Positions 1,428-14,425 of a DNA stretch of 29,425 nucleotides are shown here, piece after piece; the stretch's first letter is position 1; each line of letters begins with the position of its first letter. The position numbers were made by a program, and so were the translations under genes. Origin of the DNA: a virus. The stretch lies in the IMG/VR virus record IMGVR_UViG_3300036852_000217, positions 1 through 29,425 of that record; one strand, given 5' to 3'. The notes beneath the pieces were generated by a model that worked only from the letters and a program-made list of their open reading frames with translations, was not told the DNA's origin and searched no databases.

Positions 1428-1503
1428 TGGTGGCGATGGTGGGATTCGAACCCACACTGTATCGATTTTAAGTCGACTTCCTCTGCCATTGGGATACACC
1501 GCC
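1428..1503 (-). tRNA. tRNA-Leu (anticodon UAA), class I shape, CCA encoded
   Basis: Read on the minus strand, a 7-bp acceptor stem GGCGGTG/CATCGCC is closed by A73 and an encoded CCA (1428-1430). The T arm is GTGGG-TTCGAAT-CCCAC. The anticodon stem GTCGA/TCGAT encloses loop CTTAAAA, giving anticodon UAA. The D stem is only 3 bp (TCC/GGA). The variable region is 5 nt (ACAGT), whereas bacterial tRNA-Leu normally has a long variable arm. The identity therefore rests on the anticodon alone. UUA codons are common in this AT-rich phage, so a supplementary UUA decoder would make sense. Confidence 0.9.
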
Positions 1504-2847: not shown

Positions 2848-3138
2848 CTAAGCAGAAGCAAAGAATGGAGTAGGTTGCACTTTCAATTCGTATACTTCAA
2901 AATACCCTACATTGGATTCCACAGCAGTTAGAATCCAACTGGCCAAATCCTTTGCAGTGTTTACTTGGAGGTTAAGCCAGGTTTCTTCGCCTGTCTTTAA
3001 ATAATGCCATTTGGAGCCACTTGCTGCCGAAAATACAACAACTGTTCCGAAAGGGAATGTATCAGAAGGAACTCGATTCATAATATCTAACTTACTCTGA
3101 AGATCCGCTATTTGTTCTTGTATCTCTGCTCTTTTCAT
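2848..3138 (-). CDS. Hypothetical phage protein with N-terminal coiled coil, 96 aa
   Basis: Residues 1-22 have heptad character (EIQEQIADLQSKLD). The rest alternates as a small beta-rich domain with the stretch FGTVVVFSAASGSKWHYLKTG. It sits between the small membrane gene and the 98-aa gene. The ribosome site is weak (GAGTAAGA). Unknown function; oligomerisation through the helix is likely. Confidence 0.7.
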   Translation of the reverse strand: MKRAEIQEQIADLQSKLDIMNRVPSDTFPFGTVVVFSAASGSKWHYLKTGEETWLNLQVNTAKDLASWILTAVESNVGYFEVYELKVQPTPFFASA

Positions 3139-3144
3139 TCTTAC

Positions 3145-3441
3145 TCATTTCTTGTGACAGGGACAATCACAATCCTGTGTAGTATTTCCCCGATCGGAAG
3201 AGGCCATGCCTACTCCATTATGTTCACACAAATCATGTTTATTCTCATTACAACGAACTGAGCGAACTTCATTATTTACATCATACATAGTTACTACAAG
3301 GACACCTTCTACACTAGTATCAGCAGGTTTAAAAACGATAGAGAAGTGTCTACTCTCATGCTTGTCAATCTGAAAATAAGCTGATGCTATTATCTTTTCA
3401 AGAGTGTCACTGGCAGTATAAAGCTTAGTAAATTTCTTCAT
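3145..3441 (-). CDS. Protein with C-terminal Cys/His cluster, 98 aa
   Basis: ATG at 3441 follows GAGGATGAGTAAGAA. Residues 1-60 form a mixed alpha/beta region. The C-terminal 35 residues hold C..N.H..C.H and end CDCPCHKK, dense enough for one or two zinc ions. A terminal CxCPCH cluster recurs in short actinophage proteins, as I recall them. Function unknown. Confidence 0.75.
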   Translation of the reverse strand: MKKFTKLYTASDTLEKIIASAYFQIDKHESRHFSIVFKPADTSVEGVLVVTMYDVNNEVRSVRCNENKHDLCEHNGVGMASSDRGNTTQDCDCPCHKK

Positions 3442-3496
3442 TTCTTACTCATCCTCATTTTGATAGCCTCAAGGCCAATTAATTCTAGTTGCCTCC

Positions 3497-10697: not shown

Positions 10698-10970
10698 ATG
10701 TCTTTGCAGGGCAAACCTGAAACTTTTCAGCAAAAAGCCATCCGTCTAATTACTAATTACGTAGAAGAACACTTCGATAAGTCTGACCCACAAGCACCTT
10801 ATTACGAGGTTTACGTAGTGTGGTTTTCTAAGACACTTCAAAACTGGAAAGCTCTGTTAAGTACTACTTTGCCAGACCAGATGTACTATGAAGTTACTTA
10901 TAACGGAGACCTAGGTGAAACCTACATTGACGCTTATAAGAAGATCGAAAACATGAAAGTGCCTGACTGA
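10698..10970 (+). CDS. DUF6275-like protein, 90 aa
   Basis: ATG 10698 follows GATTGGGAGTTTTA. After a helical N-terminus (residues 9-25) comes YEVYVVWFSKTLQNWKALLS, then MYYEVTYNGDLGETYIDAYKK. This signature is the one I associate with DUF6275, a small phage/prophage protein family of unknown function found in Gram-positive hosts. It overlaps the Acb2-like gene by 1 base (TGATGG), so the two are probably translated together. First gene of the rightward operon. Confidence 0.82.
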   Translation: MSLQGKPETFQQKAIRLITNYVEEHFDKSDPQAPYYEVYVVWFSKTLQNWKALLSTTLPDQMYYEVTYNGDLGETYIDAYKKIENMKVPD

Positions 10971-11239
10971 TGGATAAAGAGATGGAAGAATTACAAAAGA
11001 AAATCCAAAGAATTCCATATATCGCTGATGAACAACTAGAATGGAGATTTGCTTTTCATCCTGCTACAGATGTAGAAAAGAAGAACGATCACGCTTCTGT
11101 TCGTCAACACTGTTTAGAACTTGCTAAGTTTATTAACAAAAAGGTTCCAGAAGGACGCGAAAAGTCTTTAGCTATTACTAAGCTTGAAGAAGTTATGATG
11201 TGGGCTAATGCAGGAATTGCGAGGTCTTCAGAGAAGTGA
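10970..11239 (+). CDS. acb2: Acb2-like cyclic-oligonucleotide sponge (anti-CBASS)
   Basis: The 89 residues show the Acb2 family signature: RFAFHP at 26-31, a first helix with R and K residues (about 43-58), then GREKSLAITKLEEVMMWANA at 62-81 followed by GIAR. In characterised Acb2 proteins this helical hairpin assembles into a hexamer that sequesters cyclic di- and trinucleotides and so blocks CBASS signalling. The residue before His30 is Phe; I recall Tyr there in many relatives, and an aromatic would still stack on a base. About 20 extra residues extend the N-terminus. Placement at the start of the rightward operon fits a defence-countering early gene. Confidence 0.85.
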   Translation: MDKEMEELQKKIQRIPYIADEQLEWRFAFHPATDVEKKNDHASVRQHCLELAKFINKKVPEGREKSLAITKLEEVMMWANAGIARSSEK

Positions 11240-11415
11240 TGAATTCAATTTACCACTTTAACAGATTACGCGACATGCTAAATGAATACGAACCTTCTCG
11301 GGAACTTAGTTTAGTAAAAACTAAGATTGATGAAGCAGAACTCTGGCTTACTAAATGTCGTCCAACAATTGCTGCACGAGAACGAGATCAGATGAGTAGT
11401 AGCAACAGTGAGTAA
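11239..11415 (+). CDS. Short Acb2-hairpin-like protein, 58 aa
   Basis: ATG 11239 overlaps the stop of the Acb2-like gene (TGATG). Residues 21-36 (RELSLVKTKIDEAELW) match residues 63-78 of the neighbour (REKSLAITKLEEVMMW) at 8 of 16 positions, including R, E, S, L, T, K, E and W. A short helix and a Pro precede this, as in Acb2. The FxFHP entry and the WANA ending are missing. It looks like a truncated or diverged tandem paralogue, possibly a second sponge, an assembly partner or a decaying copy. Confidence 0.7.
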   Translation: MNSIYHFNRLRDMLNEYEPSRELSLVKTKIDEAELWLTKCRPTIAARERDQMSSSNSE

Positions 11416-11430
11416 TAACTGGGAGGGAGA

Positions 11431-12192
11431 ATGGCAAGTAGGCAACAATATTGGGCTATTAAAAATGCTTTGACTAAGTCAGAAAAAGACCTAATCAATT
11501 ACTACGAACTACAATGGTTCTTACGCCACAACGTACCCACTATTGAGCAAGTTGCTAAATATCTAAAGTTATCCCAAGTTACAGTTAACTATTACCTAAA
11601 ACGTAGACAAGTTATTAAAGCTTTAGAAGATAGAGGAATTCCTTGGAGACAACACTCACAAGGTGATTTAACAGCCACACAGGTTGCTGCTGCTATTACA
11701 GTAATGAACATGGTAGATGAGCGACCTATGTCTGAAAAATTAGACCAACTTGGAATTCTCCCAGCAACTTATTACGCTTGGTTGAACGACCCGCAATTTA
11801 AAAACTTAGTCAATAACTTAGCAGACCAAAACCTGAGTAATGTGCGTCCTGCAGCTGTGGCGGAATTTACTAAGAAAATTAATCAAGGTGATTGGAATGC
11901 AATTAAATATTGGTTAGATACTACTGGTGAATTGCAAAGCGATCAGCCACAGAGTGAACAGCTAATTATAATGATTATTGAGATTATTCAACGTCACGTT
12001 AAAGACCCTACAACTATGGTTGCTATTGCTCAGGACCTTAAAGCAGCTACTCAAAATAGAACTCTTGAAGTTATTACTCCCCCCCAAATTACTGGTGAGC
12101 TGGTAGAGGATCAAGAGTTAATAGCTGCTAAAAAACAATTAGGATTAGACCAGCTTCGTCCTGAATACGAAACAGTAGATAGGAGAAGCTGA
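11431..12192 (+). CDS. Putative terminase small subunit, 253 aa
   Basis: ATG 11431 follows CTGGGAGGGAGA, the best ribosome site in this part. Residues 35-60 form a helix-turn-helix (TIEQVAKYLKLSQVTVNYYLK). A second HTH-like stretch follows at about 100-118 (SEKLDQLGILPATYYAWLND) with a helical region after it. Two DNA-binding units and a charged C-terminus upstream of the packaging genes fit a small terminase that recognises viral DNA. The large subunit lies only 2.2 kb downstream, separated by structural genes. A general DNA-binding regulator is the alternative. Confidence 0.75.
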   Translation: MASRQQYWAIKNALTKSEKDLINYYELQWFLRHNVPTIEQVAKYLKLSQVTVNYYLKRRQVIKALEDRGIPWRQHSQGDLTATQVAAAITVMNMVDERPMSEKLDQLGILPATYYAWLNDPQFKNLVNNLADQNLSNVRPAAVAEFTKKINQGDWNAIKYWLDTTGELQSDQPQSEQLIIMIIEIIQRHVKDPTTMVAIAQDLKAATQNRTLEVITPPQITGELVEDQELIAAKKQLGLDQLRPEYETVDRRS

Positions 12193-13596: not shown

Positions 13597-14156
13597 TGGT
13601 ACTAGCTTTAGTTACACCTACAGGTCCAAATTTTATTAAAGATTGGCCTTCTCAAAATGAAGTTAATTGCGATTTAATAGATGCTTATGCTGGTCCATGT
13701 TTAATATCTCAACCATTACAGACGTACGTTCCTGTTCTTAGTGCTACTATTACTCCTCCTACTCTTGGAGCAGGTAATATCATTCAAGGTTACTATTATA
13801 GAATTTTTGATCAAATTTTTACTTGGGGTCATTTTAGATATGGAACTGGATTTAATGCAGGATCTGGTATTTATACTATAACATTACCCTTTAAAGTTAA
13901 AAATCTTATTGCTCTAGATACTGCTCTTGCTAATACACCTATAGTTGGCAATGGCCACGTATGGGATGAAAGTAATGCATTAGCTGGTGGACGACAGCCT
14001 GTTACTTGTCAATTAAGAACTAATCAGATATTAATGTTTGGTATTAGAATGAATTCAGGTGCAGCAGCTAGAGAAGTAAGTAATACTATACCTATTACTT
14101 GGGCTGTTGATGACGGACTAAAATGGTTTGCACGCTACCAAAGGGATCCAACATGA
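13596..14156 (+). CDS. Beta-rich virion protein, copy 3 of 3
   Basis: 186 residues. The N-terminus is shorter but keeps DWPSQNEVNCDLIDAY (16-31). PPTLGAGNIIQGYYY (54-68), then FTWGHFRYGTGF and GIYTITLPF (91-99), align with the other two copies. The last 100 residues differ most among the copies, as expected for a domain that meets variable receptors. It overlaps the next gene by ATGA. Confidence 0.7.
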   Translation: MVLALVTPTGPNFIKDWPSQNEVNCDLIDAYAGPCLISQPLQTYVPVLSATITPPTLGAGNIIQGYYYRIFDQIFTWGHFRYGTGFNAGSGIYTITLPFKVKNLIALDTALANTPIVGNGHVWDESNALAGGRQPVTCQLRTNQILMFGIRMNSGAAAREVSNTIPITWAVDDGLKWFARYQRDPT

Positions 14157-14425
14157 CACAGCCATTTAATAATTTAAGCTCTTCAGATGTTAGTAAAATA
14201 CATGCTAAATCTGATATAGATAGTAGTGTTACAGCACAACATCATACCTTAGGTATTGAGCATAACCAAGCTAGTCCTGGAGATCATATTCATAATGGTA
14301 AAAGCTCTAAGAGAATTGGAAAAGGTTTAGATCCTACTTTTCCTACTACTGCCAATGCAGTTTATACCCAGGCTCAAATACAAAGTATTATAGATGCTCT
14401 TCGTGATTTAGGATTTGGAACATAA
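14153..14425 (+). CDS. Small tail/fibre-associated protein, 90 aa
   Basis: ATG 14153 forms an ATGA overlap with the previous stop and follows AAAGGGATCCAAC; an earlier in-frame ATG (14123) lies inside the previous gene. Residues 29-51 hold the phage structural signature QHHTLGIEH, QASPGDHIHNGKSS. This HHxLG...QASPGDHxHxG pattern is common in small minor tail or head-fibre proteins, as I recall. The C-terminus is helical (AQIQSIIDALRDLG). It ends directly before the large terminase. Confidence 0.72.
   Translation: MTQPFNNLSSSDVSKIHAKSDIDSSVTAQHHTLGIEHNQASPGDHIHNGKSSKRIGKGLDPTFPTTANAVYTQAQIQSIIDALRDLGFGT

Follow-up and report, generated by a model that had tools for sequence, protein, structure and literature searches.

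A putative Acb2-family sponge gene followed by a second, hairpin-only gene next to a terminase-like gene of an uncultivated phage

The best guides to the gene described here are the Acb2 proteins, whose protomer is laid out as a short helix plus a long helical hairpin (PMC10419184). For Vs.4, the Acb2 of phage T4 (PDB 7UQ2; Pfam PF24729, phrog_717), the cGAMP contacts and the interface positions have been published, and the change F82A weakens binding more than 25-fold (PMC10097602); T68 belongs with the positions probed by mutation or located at the ligand (PMC12657230). Tad1 (Thoeris anti-defence 1; PDB 7UAV and the 8KB series) has a hairpin domain behind an N-terminal beta domain and binds isomers of cyclic ADP-ribose. 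The proteins of phrog_1454, a group frequent in actinobacterial phages and found in Mycobacterium, Gordonia, Streptomyces and Arthrobacter phages, belong to the same family as ours, with up to 65% identity. Among actinobacterial phages, genes are also named 'CBASS antagonist' in the genome notes of Xandras and BigBubba (PMC11953737) and 'Acb2' in the genome note of Statler (PMC13348362), and these are likened to ours by name only. Work on Panoptes shows that a sponge can also betray its phage (PMC12657218, PMC12657230).

The window, by which we mean the whole stretch of 29,425 nucleotides that was analysed (IMG/VR record IMGVR_UViG_3300036852_000217), has a G+C content of 37.5% and carries the following features:

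10698..10970, + strand: DUF6275 gene, 90 aa, the first gene of the cassette (PF19791, E 8.5e-33, 112.5 bits)
10970..11239, + strand: Acb2-family gene, 89 aa (PF24729, E 6.3e-21; AlphaFold2 pLDDT 88.1)
11054..11224, + strand: PF24729 domain of that protein, residues 29-85, including F29-H30-P31, R45, R63-E64, T70, E73 and W78
11239..11415, + strand: hairpin-only Acb2-like gene, 58 aa (PF24729, E 4e-6, 27.4 bits)
11431..12192, + strand: HTH / terminase-small-subunit-like gene, 253 aa, which closes the cassette (PF13022, E 2.3e-10; phrog_24579, E 4.8e-9)

The genes are tightly packed: the DUF6275 gene overlaps the Acb2-family gene by TGATG, the stop codon of the latter overlaps the ATG of the 58-aa gene in the same manner, and the terminase-small-subunit-like gene starts at 11431, behind GGGAGGGAG. 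The initial annotation had put the Acb2 gene at the head of a rightward operon; it is actually the second gene, being preceded by that for DUF6275. Promoter-like sites between 9700 and 11500 number two, fewer than in shuffled sequences (mean 6.1). The match of the 253-aa protein, phrog_24579, is a terminase small subunit in PHROGs; no relative of this protein was found in genome contigs and hence no host is named. By its large terminase the phage is closest to phages of Arthrobacter, Microbacterium and Cellulosimicrobium, at about 37% identity. The gene just before the large terminase (14123-14425) encodes a short protein in which the pattern HHTLG...H.HNG occurs, and a protein of this pattern is also found upstream of Acb2 in the Arthrobacter phage Jasmine (L126, 953-1225). 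Elsewhere in the window there is a tRNA-Leu gene with anticodon TAA (1428-1503, minus strand).

The reading frame at 10970-11239 begins with ATG, and the two motifs that the initial annotation reported in its product, RFAFHP and GREKSLAITKLEEVMMWANAGIAR, are both to be read there exactly. The same annotation assigned the protein to the Acb2 hairpin family and proposed a profile comparison, and on this point it was right: the Pfam profile PF24729 ('Acb2/Tad1, hairpin domain'; curated cut-off 27 bits) matches the 89-aa protein with 74.8 bits (E 6.3e-21), much as it matches two Acb2 proteins with solved structures that served as positive controls, T4 Vs.4 (70.3 bits) and the Acb2 of Pseudomonas phage PaP2 (65.3 bits). 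Nothing in 14 cellular control genomes rose above the cut-off. Among the PHROGs, the window protein falls in phrog_1454 (E 5.5e-29) and not with Vs.4 and PaP2 Acb2, which are members of phrog_717 (merely E 0.15 for the window protein); Vs.4 itself matches phrog_1454 at E 7e-4. A search of PDB sequences with a profile of 74 sequences gave 'Acb2 homolog 43' (9PTQ) at E 6e-10, Tad1 at E 3e-5 and nothing else below E 0.01. The former, the best sequence match among solved structures, has a nearly identical PEGREKS...TKLEE core, although it lacks the W-A-N and the final Arg of the window clade; we found no literature on its ligands. Searches of NCBIfam and PADLOC returned no family for either of the two hairpin proteins. 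Judged by these profile scores, the product of 10970-11239 belongs to the Acb2/Tad1 hairpin family, far beyond chance, and the counter-defence gene carried here is of an already known kind.

AlphaFold2, run on single chains with the 74-sequence alignment, predicts four helices for the 89-aa protein (residues 3-13, 20-26, 35-58 and 63-85; pLDDT 88.1), that is, an N-terminal extension of about residues 1-18, a short helix and then two long ones. The predicted protomer matches the Acb2 layout. The N-terminal extension, which had been remarked on at the outset, is real and can be aligned to that of a relative (L006). In fold comparisons Vs.4 with cGAMP was among the top matches (Z 6.5 over 56 residues), and Acb2 and Tad1 were listed with Z 5.6 and about 5, but equal values are reached by unrelated helical proteins, including spider-silk N-terminal domains and succinate dehydrogenase subunits. 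Of the structural check that the initial annotation had proposed, the helical hairpin is thus present in the prediction, while the fold search is not decisive; a match of predicted monomers is weak when taken alone, and supports the assignment without proving it.

Comparison with Vs.4 is instructive with regard to the ligand. The two proteins agree in their Pfam domain and in their score, but share only 21% identity, and the window protein has a shorter stretch between the long helices besides its N-terminal extension. At such identity the mapping of single residues is less certain for the N-terminal part than for the last helix; with this proviso, the aromatic Y8 of Vs.4 becomes F29 and the basic K23 becomes R45 (both conservative changes, with R in 73 of 74 sequences at the latter), the interface positions L29, A66 and A77 are kept as L51, A68 and A79, and T68 is kept as T70. 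On the other hand, two cGAMP contacts in the last helix, R79 and F82, are replaced by alanine (A81 and A84), a difference that the initial annotation had not remarked on, and H11 is likewise not kept. As aligned, therefore, the known dinucleotide pocket is preserved only in part in the phrog_1454 clade, and with these two contacts replaced the ligand of the 89-aa protein need not be that of Vs.4. The residues invariant in the 74 sequences are F27, R63, E64, T70, E73 and W78. Position 29 is occupied by F in 45 sequences, Y in 24, H in three, W in one and A in one; the suggestion of the initial annotation that Phe here departs from a usual Tyr consequently does not hold for this clade, in which F is the commonest residue, and F29 as a special substitution was ruled out.

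The family membership, the predicted protomer fold and the several conserved Vs.4 positions are best explained, and in our opinion probably so, if the product of 10970-11239 is an Acb2/Tad1-family sponge with a shortened paralogue encoded directly behind it. By analogy with T4 Vs.4, the protein would assemble as a compact hexamer whose subunits pack together by their long helices; this hexamer would bind, without cleaving it, an alarm signal in the form of a cyclic di- or trinucleotide, belonging to CBASS or to another cyclic-oligonucleotide system, and with its signal bound the effector would not be switched on. One variant of this explanation is that the protein prefers trinucleotides or resembles Tad1 more closely, using the R-E...T..EE..W motif of the hairpin for a cA3-like ligand on the threefold axis while the dinucleotide pocket is weakened. 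R63 and E64, invariant in all 74 sequences, are common to Tad1 ('SRENACALTHVEEALMW'), with which the window protein shares an R-E...T..EE..MW pattern, and are absent from Vs.4; R63 aligns with R67 of PaP2 Acb2, which we take to be a residue of the cA3 pocket; and the loss of R79 and F82 points the same way. Against this, the N-terminal residues of the dinucleotide pocket (the aromatic F/Y29 and R45) are strongly conserved, and the protein, with 89 aa and an all-helical model in which there is no strand, does not have the beta domain of Tad1. We consider the variant tentatively as a real but minority possibility, and the broader reading, a sponge for a cyclic di- or trinucleotide, as the one to retain.

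The second hairpin gene (11239-11415) is an addition to the initial annotation, which had missed it. Its 58-aa product clears the PF24729 cut-off marginally (27.4 against 27 bits), which, together with the lack of any close relative found in phage records or viral contigs, might suggest a decaying duplicate or a chance frame instead of a working gene. However, an in-house profile scores it at 12.6 bits, as against a maximum of 8.8 among shuffles (0 of 2000 as high), the gene has the TGATG overlap already mentioned, and its codon score is 0.224 in frame and negative in both other frames; for the structural genes the 5% point is higher (0.359), and the DUF6275 gene scores about the same as the 58-aa gene. 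A 66-aa hairpin gene in the same place in Jasminevirus is, moreover, under purifying selection and 92-100% identical across the genus. That the 58-aa frame is not a working gene seems to us rather improbable. AlphaFold2 predicts a two-helix hairpin (helices 4-16 and 22-57, pLDDT 80.5) that lacks the F-x-H-P region and keeps the Arg aligning with R63, and in pairwise tests it resembles its own Acb2 and Acb2 homolog 43, not the small hairpins of Jasmine or of the relative L029. It is most plausibly a shortened paralogue from which the N-terminal portion of the dinucleotide pocket is missing. Such a protein may widen or adjust the range of ligands, and it probably acts alone and not as an obligate partner, since similar small hairpins persist elsewhere without an intact Acb2.

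Relatives of the family are widespread. By tblastn they are encoded in 397 of 50,697 phage records, mostly of Mycobacterium, Paenibacillus, Gordonia and Streptomyces phages, and in 367 of 418 candidate stretches of viral contigs; compared with the phrog_1454 proteins named at the start, the window copy stands out by its N-terminal extension and by the second hairpin gene. Syntenic relatives, found by searching with the 253-aa terminase-small-subunit-like protein, carry a varying complement of these genes. Both DUF6275 and Acb2 occur in L006/L021, L022-L024 and L026, with DUF6275 in the same position in L006, L024 and L026; L004/L027/L028 have Acb2 without DUF6275; in L025 neither was seen; and in L029/L030, which do not differ from each other over 800 bases at this place, Acb2 is broken by two frameshifts. 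The frameshifted gene lies at 2530-2724 of L029/L019 with an intact Acb2-like hairpin gene next to it; two contigs agree on this, and a sequencing error is possible. As a speculation, betrayal of the kind known from Panoptes may explain why some relatives have lost or broken their Acb2.

Small hairpins in front of a terminase gene recur, by sequence similarity, in two other lineages. In L029/L030 the gene immediately ahead of the terminase small subunit encodes an Acb2-like hairpin of 74 aa (23.6 bits, a score reached by 0 of 2000 shuffles; phrog_1454, E 2e-5). In Jasmine, as in the window, a full Acb2 (gp09, E 3.8e-19) is followed by a small hairpin (gp10, 66 aa), and the next gene is a terminase gene, here terL; gp10 scores 21.3 bits with PF24729, below the cut-off, and E 1.5e-16 with phrog_1454. 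Jasmine differs in having no DUF6275 at this place, and orthology between its gp10 and the 58-aa protein is not demonstrable. The 66-aa gene is also present, at 92% identity, in Brad, Adat, GurgleFerb, Nellie and Casserole. In Brad, where no Acb2 was found, DUF6275 occupies the place of Jasmine's Acb2, and comparison of gp10 between Jasmine and Brad (pN 0.042, pS 0.337) indicates purifying selection. Given these rates and the cases of L029/L030 and Jasmine/Brad, we conclude from the sequences that small hairpins are retained as genes, in some cases without an intact Acb2. Pairwise tests link Jasmine's small hairpin with that of L029; the idea that these two and the window's are one orthologous gene is not supported by them. 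Other small ORFs before the terminase showed no hairpin similarity in the shuffle test (55 aa in L022/L024, 69 aa in L026, 57 and 56 aa in L027, and 81 aa in L029). Two intact copies of the family were seen in one of 48 other family-bearing viral contigs, L095, as a plain tandem duplicate; this contig of 122.8 kb has two complete and clearly different Acb2 genes (2977-3219 and 3268-3483). A bolder proposal is that some phages possess a cassette of two sponge genes, in which a full Acb2 is joined by a hairpin-only mini-sponge. The latter would have a ligand range of its own (trinucleotides only, for example) and could work in the absence of Acb2, and the cassette would be maintained immediately in front of the terminase in at least three lineages. 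We regard this proposal as unlikely.

The position of these genes raises the question of whether the hairpin might instead serve in packaging or in the head, as an accessory protein unconnected with counter-defence. Both in the window's phage family and in Jasmine the Acb2 gene lies next to the terminase; several other phages have it by portal, terminase or head genes, and its neighbour DUF6275 is likewise often found by head or packaging genes. Yet Acb2 has very different neighbours from one phage to the next (portal, terminase, RNase H, ParB, helicase, endolysin); L025 lacks it and in L029/L030 it is frameshifted, and all of these keep the terminase small subunit; and those members of the family that have been characterised are sponges. 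An accessory role of this sort is, in our estimate, very unlikely, and we keep to the sponge. As to DUF6275 itself, whose function is unknown, it adjoins terminase, portal or scaffold genes in L113, L116, L119, L123 and L125; the phages with DUF6275 in such surroundings are those of Lactobacillus, Enterococcus, Lactococcus, Microbacterium and Streptococcus.

The locus adds a confident member to the Acb2 family from an uncultivated group of soil phages in which no cultured close relative was found. We found no published ligand binding for any phrog_1454 protein and, since the dinucleotide pocket is only partly preserved in this clade, the ligands of its proteins should be measured and not assumed. 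The companion small hairpin is the part worth following up: recurring as it does, it provides a naturally occurring minimal fragment for studying which part of Acb2 suffices for signal binding.
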